Shown here: one piece after another, positions 12,007-33,532 of the stretch | How positions within the stretch are numbered: the stretch's first letter is position 1 | Layout: each line of letters starts with the position of its first letter | Source: Akkermansia sp. N21116 | Lineage (GTDB): Bacteria; Verrucomicrobiota; Verrucomicrobiia; Verrucomicrobiales; Akkermansiaceae | Length of the DNA: 64,000 nt | NCBI RefSeq assembly: GCF_029854705.2 | Contig: NZ_CP139035.1 | Coordinates: forward strand, 62,001 to 126,000 | Direction of reading: 5' to 3' | Translations under genes and position numbers: made by a program | The notes under the pieces: generated by a model | Seen by the model: only the letters and a program-made list of their open reading frames with translations | Told to the model about the DNA's origin: nothing | The model's database searches: none

Positions 12007-12978
12007 ATGAAACAACTACGTTCCATCCTCGCCGCCTGTATCCTCGGAAGTGCCACCATGGCTTTCATGACCTCCTGCCAGGGAGAAAAACAGGTCATCA
12101 TTTACTCCAATGCCGACGATGAAGCTATCGCCGCCATGGGACAGGCCCTGGACAAGGCCGGGTACAAAGACAAATACATGTTCACCACATTCAGTACGTC
12201 GGAACTGGGTGGCAAAGTAATCGCCGAAGGTAAAAACATTGAGGCGGATATGCTGACGCTCTCCTCCTATTACCTGGACAGCGCCCAAAGCGCCAACAAG
12301 ATGTTCCTTCCCCTGACTTTTGCCATGGAGCCCCTTAAGCCCGTCAATCCCTGCTTCGGTCCCATCACCGGACAGGAAGGCGCTATCTTCATTAATACCA
12401 AAGTCATCGAGGATCGTGGAATCGCCGTTCCCAAGTCCTTAAAGGATCTGGCCAAACCCGAGTATAAAGGACTCATCTCCATCCCCAACATCAAGAGTTC
12501 GTCAACTGCCTGGCTCATGGTCCAGGCCCTTGTCAACGCTTATGGAGAAGAAGAAACACGGCAAATCCTCAAGGCCATGATTGACAATGCCGGTCCCCAT
12601 TTGGAAAATTCCGGATCAGCACCCCTCAAAAAACTGCGGGCCGGGGAAGTCGCCATCGCTTTCGGTCTGCGCCAGCAAGCCGTAGCCGACAAAAAGAAGG
12701 GGCTTCCCATCGATTATGTCGATCCTACAGAAGGGACCTTCTCCCTGATGGAGGCTGTTGCCATCCCGGACAAGGGTGACAACACCAATCCCGAGACCAT
12801 GAAAATGGCTGAAATCATGATCCGCGAAGGCCGCAAGGAGTTGATCAAAACCTATCCCGTCCCCCTCTTCCACGGGGAACAGGCCGTCTCAGACGCCAAA
12901 TCGCCCCACCAGAAAACATTCCCCCAGCCTCTGACAGTAGAATTGCTGAAAAAACATCAATCATTAATGGATAATTAA
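12007..12978 (+). CDS. AEP-binding lipoprotein of the ABC importer (PhnS-like)
   Basis: This 323-residue substrate-binding protein has a lipoprotein signal (MAFMTSC, lipid attachment at the Cys in TSCQG). The mature part (VIIYSNADDEAIAAMGQALDKAG...) is like the Fe3+/AEP class of periplasmic binding proteins, with the hinge-region motif PNIKSSSTAWLMVQAL. It captures the substrate and delivers it to the fused permease. It is the last gene of the AEP operon and is followed by a strong terminator. Iron is the main alternative ligand by family, but the phnXW context favours AEP. Confidence 0.82.
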   Translation: MKQLRSILAACILGSATMAFMTSCQGEKQVIIYSNADDEAIAAMGQALDKAGYKDKYMFTTFSTSELGGKVIAEGKNIEADMLTLSSYYLDSAQSANKMFLPLTFAMEPLKPVNPCFGPITGQEGAIFINTKVIEDRGIAVPKSLKDLAKPEYKGLISIPNIKSSSTAWLMVQALVNAYGEEETRQILKAMIDNAGPHLENSGSAPLKKLRAGEVAIAFGLRQQAVADKKKGLPIDYVDPTEGTFSLMEAVAIPDKGDNTNPETMKMAEIMIREGRKELIKTYPVPLFHGEQAVSDAKSPHQKTFPQPLTVELLKKHQSLMDN

Positions 12979-13003: not shown

Positions 13004-13037
13004 AAGGCTTCTCTCTTCAGGGAGAGAAGCTTTTTAT
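13004..13037 (+). terminator. Terminator of the AEP operon
   Basis: The stem GCTTCTCTC (13007-13015) pairs with GAGAGAAGC (13022-13030) and is followed by TTTTTATAT. It lies 28 bases after the stop of the binding-protein gene. Confidence 0.85.
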
Positions 13038-13105: not shown

Positions 13106-13135
13106 AAAAATCCCTCTCCCGACCATGGGAGAGGG
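13106..13135 (-). terminator. Orphan minus-strand intrinsic terminator
   Basis: CCCTCTCCC (13112-13120) pairs with GGGAGAGGG (13127-13135). Read on the minus strand, the stem is followed by A and five Ts (13111-13106). No minus-strand protein gene ends here, so it points to a short minus-strand transcript that starts in the gap. Confidence 0.6.
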
Positions 13136-13297: not shown

Positions 13298-13301
13298 GAC
13301 A

Positions 13302-13470
13302 CTAACGGTTTTGCAAACCGCTTGTTTTTTTATTACTCTTCTGATCGTCAGTAAATTATAATCATATATAATGTATATTTATTTTTCTTGAATTAAATTC
13401 ATTTCGGTATCAACCCCATTGAATGTCAATGGGTGTAAAAAAAATTGACAGCGGTTTGCAAATTCGTTAG
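13302..13470. repeat. Inverted repeat pair around a 127-base AT-rich segment, possible invertible promoter
   Basis: Two 21-bp arms at 13302-13322 and 13450-13470 are inverted copies with 19 of 21 bases matching, including an exact 13-base core AGCGGTTTGCAAA. The segment between them (13323-13449) is AT-rich and holds a perfect 8-bp hairpin (13415-13433). The right arm overlaps a promoter-like sequence reading into the autotransporter gene. The arrangement fits either a phase-variable invertible promoter or a pair of operators for divergent promoters. No recombinase gene is in the window. The rest of the 12979-13505 gap holds only the terminators and hairpins listed separately. Confidence 0.6.
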
Positions 13471-13473
13471 AAA
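13445..13473 (+). promoter_or_regulatory. Putative promoter of the autotransporter gene
   Basis: TTGACA (13445-13450), a 17-base spacer and TAGAAA (13468-13473) resemble a sigma-70 promoter. The spacer is almost exactly the right inverted-repeat arm. The start codon follows about 33 bases downstream. Confidence 0.4.
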
Positions 13474-13505: not shown

Positions 13506-16500
13506 ATGAAAATCAGATATTTATTTCCATTTTCTCTAATTTTTAGCGTTTCTACAATACCGGCAAATGCTGATTTAGTAGTCACCACTGTCGATGAACT
13601 TAATGATTGTCGCGATCAGTATTTTCAAAACGGCGCCTTCGTTCTGGATTCAGTCGGGAACGTTTCCTTCACGCCTCTTTCGGAATCTCCGGAATCGACC
13701 TCGTTTCCTTATCTATTGACTTCCAGTGCCAGTAACAAAACAGTAGATACCCGTTTTTCCATAACAAATACGGGGGATATCTCTTTCCAAGGCAACGGTA
13801 CCTATGGGGGGATAAACTCTTCGGGGAATATGGGAGGCTACCTTTCCAATTCCGTCGTATTTTCAAATACGGGGTCTATCTCCTTTTCCGATTTCTCAGG
13901 CTATACGGGAGGAGCCATTAACTGTCCCTACGGCGGACTGATCTTTTCCGATATCAACGGAAATATCACCTTCGAAAACAACAAGTCATCATCGGAAGGA
14001 GGAGCCATACAACTGAGGGGAAATCAGGCGGACATGCCTGGTAACCTGACTGTTCATAATCTCCAGGGGGATTTTATAGCAAAAGGGAATTCCTCCACAT
14101 ACGGCGGCGTTTTGTTCAGCATTTCCGGACATCTGGATTTTTCAAAGACGGGAGACCTGATCTTCGAAAACAACATGGCACAAGGAAATTCCTATTCCAA
14201 TGGTGGAGCTCTTTACAGTGGAGGAGTAGCGAACCACATGTCCTTTGTCGATACGGGGAACATGGTCTTCCGGGGAAATGAAGCACCTTATTGCGGCGGT
14301 GCCATTTATATAGACTTTACGCTTCTGGACGAGAACATCGCTCCAATCCTGTTTCAAAATACGGGAGATATTCTTTTCGAGAATAATCAAGCCACTTACG
14401 GGGGAGCTATCAGTGCCCTCAACTACCGGCCCACCAGCAAGTACGACATTGTCTTTGAAAACACGGGAAAGATATCCTTTATCGGAAACAGCGCCGTTGT
14501 CGGCGGCGGCATCTATGCCGGATCATTAGGCAGCGGACTGGATGTCGGAGTCAGGATTACCGGAGCGGAGAGCGTACTTTTCGATAGTAATTATGCCACT
14601 AAAGATGGTGGAGGAGGAAGTGCCATTTATTCTACCAACCTGTACATTGCCAATTGCGGAGACGTTTCGTTCACCAATAACAGAGGTGTTTACGACGGAA
14701 ACGCCGTTGTCTACCTGAGCATGATGGGGAAAGGCAACAATGTCCTTTCCGCAGACAGGGGGGATATTCTTTTCCGCAACAATCTTCCCGGGGTGAATGA
14801 ATATGTCAATTTAGCCATAAACGCCTGGGGGATGGATGAAACGGATTTGAACGTACGCGCAGCGGAAGGAAGAAAAGTTTCCTTCTACGACCCAATCATC
14901 ATCGAACCCGATGCCGAGCCCGAGGACGCAAAGCCGATCACTTGGGATCTGAACAAGGGTGATGGCTATACGGGTACGGTTGTTTTTTCCGGAGAGGATT
15001 TGGAAGACCCAGATATGGCTGTTTCAACGATAAAAGGCGGCGATCTTGTCGTACACCAGGGATCACTCGTACTCCAGAAAGGAGCATCCCTGCTCGTTGA
15101 AGGCGAAGGACACGGGTTTTCCCAATACGCAGGGATCCTGGATATCAGCAATGCCAAGATCACAGCTCCTTTTATCCGAATCGGCGGTACGCCTGAAGGG
15201 GATATCGTTACCATCAGGCCCGGTGAACATGCGATATTGGAAGGGGATGAAATTACGATGAATGGCAATATCATCGTCGATTTCGCCTACCATATGACCG
15301 AAACGGGATTTTCCTCCCCCGGCCCGGTTGAAATTATTGCCGGGCAATTCCTCCTCGGAGGATCCCTCGGCATTCACGATACGGAAACCGACACGAATTA
15401 CTACTATGCGGACAACCGGTGGGCTGCTCCCCATAGCTTTACATTGCTGCATGATACACAACAAATCCATGACGGGGATTTTGATTCCGTTGCGTCTTTA
15501 GCGACGGGAAGCGACCGCATCGACTCTCCCTACACCTACAATGGAACATGGAGCCGTGAATGGATTGATTCGGATGGAGACGGCACATTGGATCAATTGA
15601 ATGTCGTATGGACTCCCGATACCGTAGAACCTCCCGTCGATCCGGTAGATCCTGACGATCCTAATCCGCCCACACCTCCGGCTCCGATCATCCGGGACAT
15701 CCTGCCCGAACTGGCGGGAGGTCTCGCCATGAACACCATGTGGTCATCCGCTTCCAATGCCCTCTCCACATCCAATGCCGCACTCGGCAACCTCGGTGTC
15801 ACCCGGTTCAAAATGGAACCGAAAAACAACTACTGGATCAAGGGACTCGGAGACTTCACCAGCCACGGTTCCGTGGGAACCCGTGACGGATACGACTACA
15901 ATGGAGGAGGGTACGCCGTCGGCGCCGATCGCAAGATCACGACCAACGCAATTCTCGGCCTTTCCTTCGGCAATCTCTACGGCAAGAACTACAGCCGCTC
16001 CTTCGTCGGAGATGTCGACCAGACATCCGAAGTCGCTCTTCTTTACGGTGGCTGGAGAAAAGAGATCAATCCCAAGAACGCGCTGACTGTAACAGGATCG
16101 GCCGGTTACGGATGGACGAAGAACAAAATGGATTCATTCCATACGGGAAACTGGTCACACGGCGAGTGGGATAACCGCACTCTCTTCGGCACTCTCAAGG
16201 GACAGTGGGACCACGCTCTGAAAAACAACTGGAGCGTAAGCGCATTCCTTGGGCTTGAGTACACGGATGTCACTCAGGACTCGTTCACGGAAAAAGGCTG
16301 GGATGCCCGCCGCTTCGATGAAGGACACATGAGGAATCTTTCCCTTCCGGTCGGAATGGGAGTCTCCAAACAAAGCTCGTTAAACGGAATGGGCTGGGTC
16401 AATTCCCTGTCCGTCAGCTATGTGCCGGACGTCTATCGCGAAAATCCGAGCGCCGGAGCCGAACGCCTGATGAACGGATACCGTTGGACGGCAAAAGGAA

Positions 16501-16649
16501 TTGCGCCGGACCGCAATGCCGTACGAATCAATTACGACAGCACTCTCGCAATCTCTCCGCAATGGACGGCATATGCCGGGTATGAGTTCGAAGGCCGGAA
16601 CAGGTCGGTGTATCACCGCGTCAACCTGGGCGTAAGCTTCTCGTACTAA
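13506..16649 (+). CDS. Autotransporter with Pmp-like GGA-I/FxxN repeats
   Basis: This 1047-residue surface protein has a signal peptide (cleavage near IPANA), a passenger of about 25-700, a Pro/Asp-rich linker (PPVDPVDPDDPNPP, near 705-725) and a C-terminal autotransporter barrel (about 770-1047) ending in VNLGVSFSY. The passenger repeats pair FxxN with GGA-I: FENNKSSSEGGAIQ, FRGNEAPYCGGAIY, FENNQATYGGAIS, FIGNSAVVGGGIY. This pattern is known from chlamydial polymorphic membrane proteins, which are adhesins and form beta-helices. A role in adhesion or immune interaction is inferred. The start is confirmed by the signal peptide; it has no Shine-Dalgarno sequence. The upstream inverted repeat suggests on/off expression. 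Confidence 0.88.
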   Translation: MKIRYLFPFSLIFSVSTIPANADLVVTTVDELNDCRDQYFQNGAFVLDSVGNVSFTPLSESPESTSFPYLLTSSASNKTVDTRFSITNTGDISFQGNGTYGGINSSGNMGGYLSNSVVFSNTGSISFSDFSGYTGGAINCPYGGLIFSDINGNITFENNKSSSEGGAIQLRGNQADMPGNLTVHNLQGDFIAKGNSSTYGGVLFSISGHLDFSKTGDLIFENNMAQGNSYSNGGALYSGGVANHMSFVDTGNMVFRGNEAPYCGGAIYIDFTLLDENIAPILFQNTGDILFENNQATYGGAISALNYRPTSKYDIVFENTGKISFIGNSAVVGGGIYAGSLGSGLDVGVRITGAESVLFDSNYATKDGGGGSAIYSTNLYIANCGDVSFTNNRGVYDGNAVVYLSMMGKGNNVLSADRGDILFRNNLPGVNEYVNLAINAWGMDETDLNVRAAEGRKVSFYDPIIIEPDAEPEDAKPITWDLNKGDGYTGTVVFSGEDLEDPDMAVSTIKGGDLVVHQGSLVLQKGASLLVEGEGHGFSQYAGILDISNAKITAPFIRIGGTPEGDIVTIRPGEHAILEGDEITMNGNIIVDFAYHMTETGFSSPGPVEIIAGQFLLGGSLGIHDTETDTNYYYADNRWAAPHSFTLLHDTQQIHDGDFDSVASLATGSDRIDSPYTYNGTWSREWIDSDGDGTLDQLNVVWTPDTVEPPVDPVDPDDPNPPTPPAPIIRDILPELAGGLAMNTMWSSASNALSTSNAALGNLGVTRFKMEPKNNYWIKGLGDFTSHGSVGTRDGYDYNGGGYAVGADRKITTNAILGLSFGNLYGKNYSRSFVGDVDQTSEVALLYGGWRKEINPKNALTVTGSAGYGWTKNKMDSFHTGNWSHGEWDNRTLFGTLKGQWDHALKNNWSVSAFLGLEYTDVTQDSFTEKGWDARRFDEGHMRNLSLPVGMGVSKQSSLNGMGWVNSLSVSYVPDVYRENPSAGAERLMNGYRWTAKGIAPDRNAVRINYDSTLAISPQWTAYAGYEFEGRNRSVYHRVNLGVSFSY

Positions 16650-25157: not shown

Positions 25158-26792
25158 TTACATGCTTCGGAGAGCTTTCGCAGGATCCTGGTAGGCAGTC
25201 AGCACGGCAGGTACCACCGATGCCACGACAACCATCACAAATGCCTTCACCGACTGATTCAGCAATTCCGCAGGATTGATCTCCGCCGGAATCTCCACCC
25301 CGTGGAAATCCATCGGAAACGGATCAATACCGATCGTCTTTAGGAATATGTGGATCTGCACCCGGTAATGCAACACCAGCAACGCCAAAGCCACCCCCAA
25401 CGCCGCCCCGGCAATACCGATAATCACCCCTTGCCACAGGAACACCCGCACGACCTGCCAGGGAGTAGCCCCCAAAGCCTTCATCAGGGCCAGTTCCTTC
25501 TTCCTCTGGATCGATACGGTAAACATCACCGCCATAATGCAAAAGGCAGCAATCATCCCGATAAAGGAGAGAACAAACCCCATCATCATGCGTTCCTGCT
25601 GAATCAACTTGAACCAGGAACTGTACTTGTCCATCCACGATTCAATGCCCCAACCGGAACTACCTTCATACGTTACAGGCAGGGCATGCTCCACATCGGC
25701 AGTCACCTGGGCAAGATCGTAGGGATTCTTCGTCCTGATCGCAATCGCCTGCACGTAATCATCCTCAAATCCCTGAAGCTCCTGACCAATCTCAAGCGGT
25801 ATAAAAAGATCCGGACAAGTCACATGCTGGGACGCCTGATAGATTCCGATCACCGTCAGATCCTTCGGCAAAATAAGACTCTTGATCATGCGGACGCTGT
25901 TAATATCCTCCTTGTCCTTGTTCACCGACTTCAATGCCGAAACCATCGCCTTCAACTGACCGGAGACATTGGCAGGAAAAGTCAGTTCGCCCGCGACATC
26001 ATCTCCGAAAGCGTCTTCCGGCAACACATCCAACACCTTTCCGATAGCCTCAGCCTCCACCTGTAGCCGGGGAGATCCATCCAGTTTCTGCAATAAAGAC
26101 ACCGCTTCCCTGACATCCGATCCGTTCCAGACAACGCCATCTTTTCCGTTGGGGCGCTTCTTGTCGGCAAGAGAGAGCAACCGGTCGAGTTCCGTTTCAA
26201 ACCTCGTCGCAAGCAATGGGCGATCCATCTGTGAAAACGCACGCACTGCATCTCCATAATTACGCGTGGTAAACACGCGCAGCTTGTCATTAACCGATAA
26301 GCCCAGCATCCGGGCCACCGTTGAAGAAACCACCGCATTCTCGCCCAACCCGAGATCAAACGACCCCGAGCTTAACAACGGAGCAAGCTCCGCCATCTGC
26401 TCCTTGTTTTCCGTATCCAGAGCCCGGAACGAACATGGTCTTTGGGCACCGTTCACATCCACCAGGGCATAATCCTCCACCAGGGCATAAGTCGATTCTA
26501 CCCCCGGCACCTTATTGATCGTCTCTTCCAGAGTCCGCCAGTCGCCAATCGCCCCTCGAAGACCTGGGACCGCATAATAATTCATCTGCAAATGGGGGGA
26601 ATAGGCAAGCAACCTCTCCTGAAGCTCCTTCTGCAAGCCTCCCATCACCGACAACACAATAATAAGAACCATCACCCCCAGCGACACACCCAGCAAACAA
26701 ATCAGCGTAATCACTGAAAAATACGTGCGCAACGGATTCAAATAACGCAGGGCCAATGACAGGCTCATGTGGCGACTCAGAAAATTCTTCAT
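25158..26792 (-). CDS. LolC/LolE-type lipoprotein-releasing permease
   Basis: The 544-residue protein has one N-terminal membrane segment (TYFSVITLICLLGVSLGVMVLI begins near residue 20), a large periplasmic MacB-like domain (about 50-400) and three C-terminal membrane segments of the FtsX type (GFVLSFIGMIAAFCIMAVMF, VFLWQGVIIGIAGAALGVAL, VKAFVMVVVASVVPAVLTAY). It ends YQDPAKALRSM, close to the usual YPAxRAARLDPVxALR ending. LolC/E proteins detach lipoproteins from the inner membrane. The start at 26792 was chosen over a longer frame that reads through an inverted repeat. The periplasmic domain is longer than in E. coli LolC (about 400 residues). No LolD ATPase is adjacent. Confidence 0.85.
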   Translation of the reverse strand: MKNFLSRHMSLSLALRYLNPLRTYFSVITLICLLGVSLGVMVLIIVLSVMGGLQKELQERLLAYSPHLQMNYYAVPGLRGAIGDWRTLEETINKVPGVESTYALVEDYALVDVNGAQRPCSFRALDTENKEQMAELAPLLSSGSFDLGLGENAVVSSTVARMLGLSVNDKLRVFTTRNYGDAVRAFSQMDRPLLATRFETELDRLLSLADKKRPNGKDGVVWNGSDVREAVSLLQKLDGSPRLQVEAEAIGKVLDVLPEDAFGDDVAGELTFPANVSGQLKAMVSALKSVNKDKEDINSVRMIKSLILPKDLTVIGIYQASQHVTCPDLFIPLEIGQELQGFEDDYVQAIAIRTKNPYDLAQVTADVEHALPVTYEGSSGWGIESWMDKYSSWFKLIQQERMMMGFVLSFIGMIAAFCIMAVMFTVSIQRKKELALMKALGATPWQVVRVFLWQGVIIGIAGAALGVALALLVLHYRVQIHIFLKTIGIDPFPMDFHGVEIPAEINPAELLNQSVKAFVMVVVASVVPAVLTAYQDPAKALRSM

Positions 26793-26873
26793 AAATACCG
26801 CCGGGAGAATGAAGGAAGCCCTCCCCGATTCCAAGGACAAAATGAGTCTGAGCGTAATCCCGGTCAGGATTTC

Positions 26874-27010
26874 TAAACCGCTGCGGTGAAATTGGAACTG
26901 GATGATGTCGGCTCTATCGCCTGGTAGGATGCCTGTTTCTAAACCAAAATGCATCATGATATGAAGGAGGCAGTCGATATGATATGTTCCAATTTCACCG
27001 CAGCAGTTTA
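26874..27010. repeat. 137-base element with 24-bp inverted arms
   Basis: Arms at 26875-26898 and 26986-27009 are inverted copies with 23 of 24 bases matching (core GCTGCGGTGAAATTGGAAC), separated by 87 bases. The arms end in TA on both sides, but this is also part of the symmetry. A 10-base direct repeat TTTCTAAACC occurs at the left edge and again inside. Possible readings are a small non-autonomous mobile element, an invertible segment, or a long hairpin in the leader of the lol-type gene. The 334-base gap 26793-27126 holds this element and the terminator listed next, and nothing else I can see. Confidence 0.6.
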
Positions 27011-32320: not shown

Positions 32321-33532
32321 ATGAGCGACGACTGCCTCATTTTCAGCCCTATAGAAACCATTGTGGAAGAAATCCGCAACGGCCGCATGGTCATTGTCAC
32401 CGACGACCCCGGCCGCGAAAACGAGGGAGACCTCATTTGCGCTGCGGAATGGACGACTCCGGACATGATCAACTTCATGGTGACCCATGCCCGAGGATTG
32501 GTCTGCGCTCCGCTTTCCGGGGAACGGACGGATGCCCTGGGACTTCCCCTGATGACTTCCGTCAACAGAGAAAACATGTCCACGGCATTCACCGTGTCCG
32601 TGGATGCGAGTGCCGCCCATGGAACAACCACCGGCATCAGCGCTTTGGAACGAGCCGCTACCATCCGTCTGCTGGCCGATCCGAAAGCAACCAACGACGA
32701 CTTTGTTCAGCCGGGACACATTTTCCCGTTGCGCGCCGTCGAAGGCGGCGTCCTGCGCCGGGCCGGTCACACGGAAACAACGGTCGACCTCATGAAGCTG
32801 GCGGGTCTCCAACCCGCCGGAGTCTGCTGCGAAATCATGAACGAGGACGGCACCATGGCCCGCATGGCCGACCTCGCCCAGTTCCAGAAAGAGCACGGCC
32901 TCAAAGCCTGTTCCACTGCACAGCTAATTGAATACCGCCGCAAAACGGAACAACTCATTGCCCGTACGGAAACCATCAGCCTCCCCACGGATTACGGCGA
33001 TTTCACCTGCCACCTTTACGAATCCAGCCTGGACGGAGCCCACCATCTCGCCCTCGTTCACGGAGATATCGACCCGGACAAGTCCATACTCGTCCGCGTT
33101 CACAGCGAATGCTTGACAGGGGATGTTTTCGGCTCCCGCCGCTGCGACTGCGGCAGCCAGCTCCACGTCGCCATGCGCCGCGTGTCGGAAGAAGGAGGAA
33201 TCATCCTCTACCTGCGCCAGGAAGGACGCGGCATCGGCCTCCCCGCCAAACTCCATGCCTACAAACTCCAGGAGCAGGGCCTCGATACCGTCGAGGCCAA
33301 CGTCAAACTCGGTTTTGCCCCCGACCTGCGCGACTACGGCATCGGAGCCCAAATACTCCGGGATCTCGGCGCACGCCATCTGCGCCTGATGACTAATAAC
33401 CCCAAGAAAATCAGAGGACTCGAAGGATTCGGACTCGACATCGTCGAACAAATACCGATCCGCATCGAGCCCAACGATATCAACCGCCACTATCTGGAAA
33501 CCAAGCGGGACAAGATGGGTCACCTCATCTGA
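32321..33532 (+). CDS. ribBA: Bifunctional DHBP synthase / GTP cyclohydrolase II
   Basis: The 403-residue protein makes both precursors of the riboflavin ring. Residues 1 to about 205 are DHBP synthase (DDPGRENEGDLICAA; RAGHTETTVDLMKLAG), which converts ribulose 5-phosphate to dihydroxybutanone phosphate. Residues from about 212 are GTP cyclohydrolase II, with the zinc-binding cysteines of SECLTGDVFGSRRCDCGSQ and the RQEGRGIGL motif. It starts 10 bases after glnS and is followed by ribH. I see no FMN riboswitch upstream. Confidence 0.96.
   Translation: MSDDCLIFSPIETIVEEIRNGRMVIVTDDPGRENEGDLICAAEWTTPDMINFMVTHARGLVCAPLSGERTDALGLPLMTSVNRENMSTAFTVSVDASAAHGTTTGISALERAATIRLLADPKATNDDFVQPGHIFPLRAVEGGVLRRAGHTETTVDLMKLAGLQPAGVCCEIMNEDGTMARMADLAQFQKEHGLKACSTAQLIEYRRKTEQLIARTETISLPTDYGDFTCHLYESSLDGAHHLALVHGDIDPDKSILVRVHSECLTGDVFGSRRCDCGSQLHVAMRRVSEEGGIILYLRQEGRGIGLPAKLHAYKLQEQGLDTVEANVKLGFAPDLRDYGIGAQILRDLGARHLRLMTNNPKKIRGLEGFGLDIVEQIPIRIEPNDINRHYLETKRDKMGHLI

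Follow-up and report, generated by a model that had tools for sequence, protein, structure and literature searches.

A pair of short inverted arms lies in front of a predicted surface-adhesin gene of Akkermansia sp. N21116, raising the question of whether the adhesin is switched by inversion of the DNA between them and, if so, which promoter parts move. The locus is in a 64,000-nucleotide stretch of the genome (the window), to which positions refer unless a genome or locus is named. An earlier sequence-only reading had proposed a phase-variable promoter with the layout of known invertons or, alternatively, two operator sites serving divergent promoters. The features of the locus, from left to right, are:

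13004-13033, plus strand: hairpin resembling a terminator, which follows the upstream solute-binding-protein gene (12007-12978) and separates that gene from the switch
13112-13135, minus strand: intrinsic terminator that would meet a leftward transcript
13299-13304, minus strand: TAGTGT, which could serve as a -10 for leftward transcription once the segment is flipped
13302-13322, no strand: left inverted arm, with the symmetric core CGGTTTTGCAAACCG at 13306-13320
13322-13327, minus strand: AAACAA at the opposite inner edge, matching TTGACA at 1 of 6 positions, which would replace the -35 after inversion
13323-13449, no strand: segment of 127 nt predicted, from its family, to invert
13445-13450, plus strand: -35 hexamer TTGACA at the right inner edge of the segment, a family-wide position, preceded by an A8 tract (13437-13444)
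13450-13470, no strand: right inverted arm, with the core CGGTTTGCAAATTCG at 13452-13466 and one outer-half mismatch to the family pattern
13468-13473, plus strand: -10-like hexamer TAGAAA in the gene-side flank, where a TA is found family-wide
13506-16649, plus strand: Pmp-type autotransporter of 1047 aa, the predicted target of the switch

The 21-nt arms are complementary at 19 of 21 positions and enclose 127 nt, as had been read. The exact 13-nt core reported for them, AGCGGTTTGCAAA, is present in both, and the genome-wide search for the arm sequence that the sequence-only reading proposed yields no further exact copies in the 3.50-Mb single contig. Trimmed to their symmetric part, the cores are CGGTTT-TGC-AAACCG on the left and CGGTTT-GCA-AATTCG on the right. 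Exact 13-mer inverted pairs separated by 50-400 nt occur at only two places in the 64-kb window, and dinucleotide shuffles of the window give 0.25 such pairs on average and at most 4 overlapping k-mers; it is the match of the arms to a genus-wide family that places the repeat well beyond chance. A second inverted repeat, at 26874-26898 and 26986-27010, has 25-nt arms (96% complementary) with 87 nt between them. Of these arms, one falls within the 5' coding portion of a minus-strand gene for a MacB/FtsX-type permease (25158-26957) and the other upstream of that gene; this repeat could be a switch of another kind, altering the start of the permease gene.

The promoter parts also bear out the earlier description. 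The right arm begins with the last A of TTGACA, so that the 17-nt spacer (13451-13467) between TTGACA and TAGAAA is drawn from the arm itself; TAGAAA ends in A where a -10 has T. To the ATG at 13506 we count 32 bases where about 33 had been given, and the gene starts 39 nt past the right core. The open reading frame, previously called adhesin-like, contains Pmp repeats and an autotransporter beta-domain (PF02415, PF03797, TIGR01376), and the minus-strand terminator expected to the left of the segment is found at 13135-13112.

The arms resemble a repeat already known from the genus. In an Akkermansia muciniphila paper, the Akkermansia inverton motif is quoted from Jiang et al. 2019 as CGGATT..AATCCG, and a capsule switch of that species, cps1, is shown to invert in mice and people as well as in culture (PMC13343947). 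The Akkermansia inverton group 138 includes one near autotransporter genes, with an orientation that drifts across mouse generations (PMC11892184). We used the pattern CGGWTTNNNAAWCCG, whose A/T degeneracy widens the published motif in line with pairs such as L062, L076, L084 and L085. The two arm cores differ from it by 0 and 1 mismatch, so the inverted pair fits the motif. With at most one mismatch, the pattern has 102 sites in the strain's own genome versus 21 for the reversed control. Exact sites number 57 in genome G004, 65 in G016 and 54 in G050, from three related species, and 26 in the relative G013, with 0 for the reversed pattern; there are only 2-4 in each of G001, G002, G023 and G053.

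Other properties of the locus are also those of the family. The central triplets, TGC and GCA, are complementary; the two sites are 146 nt apart, within the range of 133-395 nt (mainly 133-170) of pairs in the same genome; and the repeat stands directly before a surface-structure gene, here of the Pmp/autotransporter type. Likeness to the published invertons thus extends to motif, segment size, genus and gene context, including the published case near autotransporter genes. The differences are the adhesin gene, a species not described there, and variant cores (CGGTTT; AATTCG) that are rarer than CGGATT/AATCCG. These comparisons support the locus as a new member of the known CGGATT..AATCCG family. 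Other Pmp-like genes of the same genome also have such switches upstream. No such repeat was found upstream of the related Pmp genes in L051 and L052, so the switch is not ancestral to this adhesin group. A composite 25-mer (TTGAC-core-TA) occurs in 23 of 76 Akkermansia genomes, with 0 for its reversed control, and the family seems, from these sequences, to be restricted to part of the genus. The composite is common in about 17 of the 76 and absent or single elsewhere.

Several observations indicate that the family recombines. When neighbouring exact sites lie 60-600 bp apart, their central triplets are reverse-complementary in 53 of 56 cases, while the triplet varies freely among loci. At two orthologous loci of the close species G050 and G004 the flanks are collinear and the segment aligns only when flipped: L126/L156 match at 269/330 positions flipped versus 186/363 as is, and L160/L211 at 166/185 versus 105/212. 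Most other orthologous pairs of these genomes align unflipped. The strain's own genome has three paralogous switches with similar segments, and that of L075 has the opposite orientation to its gene from those of L071 and L072. Of the 50 sites listed for the draft genome G050, 11 are less than 400 bp from a contig start (binomial p ~4e-9); this is expected if the assembler met both orientations, though contig breaks could also come from segment sequence common to several loci. These results bear on the operator alternative, in which the arms would bind a regulator of divergent promoters and no DNA would invert. The left core is itself palindromic, like many operators. However, there is no divergent gene on the left, only the terminator and the 3' part of a gene on the plus strand, and complementary triplets specific to each pair are needed by recombination, not by operator binding. 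The inverted orthologous segments and a -35 always at one end only (see below) are likewise left unexplained by operators. We reject this alternative as very improbable.

For the locus under study, no orthologue that would allow orientation to be compared was found among 38 relatives or 75 other genomes of the genus, and a protein scan of genome contigs for an orthologue gave no match. We considered whether the locus is a decayed family member, locked by its variant core and outer mismatches so that the adhesin is constitutively ON. The two arm mismatches and the variant core are compatible with such a copy, as is the lack of an orthologue in the other state. Family pairs were collected as 117 distinct pairs from five genomes, a set that leans to good matches since its sites were chosen by pattern; arms are imperfect in 60 of the 117, an AATTCG-type outer half occurs in 17 and a CGGTTT core in 6. 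At the locus the inner halves and the central triplet are identical between the arms, and in the 117 pairs, too, the outer, flank-side half of the core holds most arm-to-arm mismatches (56 versus 17 in the inner half). A locked copy is accordingly an unlikely reading; we predict from the family that this locus inverts, and adhesin expression would change with it. For the outer-half bias itself, recombination alone offers no obvious explanation.

If the segment inverts, the next question is what it carries. Across the family, exact TTGAC starts 7 nt ahead of the core in 68 segment ends, 8 nt ahead in 10, and at any other offset in no more than 2. A -35 matching TTGACA at 5 or more of 6 positions is present at exactly one inner edge in 77 of the 117 pairs and at both in 0; the remaining 40 have no good -35 at the expected place. 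The locus matches at 6 of 6 positions on the right and 1 of 6 on the left, with TAGAAA at 17 nt. On the other side of the core, at the position set by a 17-nt spacer, TA is found in 45 of 67 gene-side flanks versus 15 of 67 opposite flanks, the gene side being assigned by a simple open-frame rule (p = 3e-7; p = 2e-7 without the close relative G050). This gene-side TA holds both when the -35 faces the gene (30 cases) and when it faces away (21). The A+T content upstream of the -35 position is 0.70 versus 0.64 at the other end (p = 0.005). Downstream start codons are close to the core, half of them no more than 45 nt away. Compensation for a shifted -35 (at -8, with the -10 at offset 1) was not seen in seven cases and so adds nothing in favour of this geometry. 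From these counts the recombination core appears to serve as the 17-bp promoter spacer, so that flipping moves only the -35. We lean towards extending this to the whole Akkermansia family, with the segment supplying the -35, the resident flank the -10 and the core the spacer.

The competing layout is an inverton with its whole promoter inside the segment (TCGTCA-16-TATAAT at 13345-13372 would be one example) and with an edge TTGAC that belongs to the recombinase site or matches by chance. This candidate is listed in the promoter scan, and published accounts (PMC11892184) speak of promoters embedded in invertons, whereas here only the -35 would be inside. Yet the region has two promoter-like matches against 1.8 expected, and an element required by the recombinase should be at both arms; a good TTGACA never is. 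The TA signal keeping to the gene side for both directions of the -35, and the closeness of the start codons to the core, also argue against a wholly internal promoter, which we consider quite unlikely. The split layout may be undescribed: the literature searched, which did not extend to the Jiang 2019 motif paper itself, contains no description of a split promoter in an inverton. The inverton layout originally read from this locus is thus supported by membership of a published family, by both family orientations in relatives and by a family-wide geometry of -35, arm and -10. In pairs of the strain's own genome, the segment end without the -35 often has TTATAATA or TTATTAT about 25-30 nt from the core (L071, L072, L074-L076, L084, L085, L087, L088, L103), possibly an accessory protein site or a second promoter element; in the window, TTATAAT lies about 40 nt from its core.

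Which enzyme would act on the cores was addressed by domain searches. The window (C1:62001-126000) has no match to tyrosine or serine recombinase domains, the nearest tyrosine matches lying at 33095 and 164187, which agrees with the earlier statement that the window lacks a recombinase and that one would have to act in trans. The search of the whole genome for both enzyme types, also suggested by that reading, finds, besides XerC- and XerD-like genes, about nine further genes or gene fragments for tyrosine recombinases, but no PF00239 match, the signature of serine recombinases for which 10 of 14 control genomes were positive in the same search. An invertible promoter of the serine-recombinase (Mpi/Hin) type was rejected because the genome has no such enzyme. 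A third Xer-like gene is unlikely to be the sole enzyme, as it is present in G004, G016 and G050 and was not found in G000 or G013, both of which have the family. The three species of G000, G004 and G016 share a 335-aa tyrosine recombinase at 97-98% identity (L018 1231-2238, L256 549-1556, L266 589-1596) despite XerC and XerD being only about 56-66% identical between G000 and G004/G016, so it was probably transferred recently. Two close species have a switch some 200 bp past the 3' end of the XerC-like gene (L170, G004:C1:2811627-2811972; L207, G050:C102).

Our preferred reading, which we hold to be highly likely, is that the locus is an Akkermansia CGGATT..AATCCG inverton switching the Pmp-type autotransporter on and off via a split promoter. 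A recombinase supplied in trans would recombine the two 15-bp cores and invert the segment. The segment would carry only the -35 at its right edge, while TAGAAA would stay beside the gene with the core between them as the 17-bp spacer. In the sequenced orientation, TTGACA-G-CGGTTTGCAAATTCG-T-TAGAAA faces the adhesin, presumably the ON state. After inversion AAACAA would meet the -10 of the gene, giving the OFF state, and the -35 would face left, with TAGTGT as a possible -10 and the minus-strand terminator at 13135-13112 ahead of it.

Such a switch shares features with better-known systems. The capsule promoters of Bacteroides fragilis are inverted by the serine recombinase Mpi, the whole promoter flipping; they resemble the Akkermansia family in having many small invertible segments per genome under one global system, but the repeat is different and the Akkermansia genome studied here has no serine recombinase. 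Like the present locus, fimS of Escherichia coli is a short invertible segment that switches a surface adhesin. Unlike it, fimS is a single dedicated locus with the genes for the tyrosine recombinases FimB and FimE adjacent and the whole promoter inside. Insertion sequences with an outward -35 form hybrid promoters when this mobile element lands at the right spacing from a resident -10. Those are one-way insertions, whereas here the change would be a reversible site-specific inversion in which the recombination site is the spacer.

With this locus, a genus of interest as a beneficial gut microbe gains a predicted phase-variable adhesin. Elsewhere in the family, a switch directly before a phosphoethanolamine-transferase-like gene (L085, G000:C1:2678817-2678974) suggests that an envelope modification is phase-variable. 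With the rule TTGACNN-CGGWTTNNNAAWCCG-NTA, it would be possible to read directly from an assembly whether many surface genes are ON or OFF. If the split layout is true, recombination and transcription would share one site, and transcript starts and switch-locking changes would become predictable; it would also be a layout undescribed for natural invertible switches, present in more than 12 Akkermansia species and at many loci per genome.
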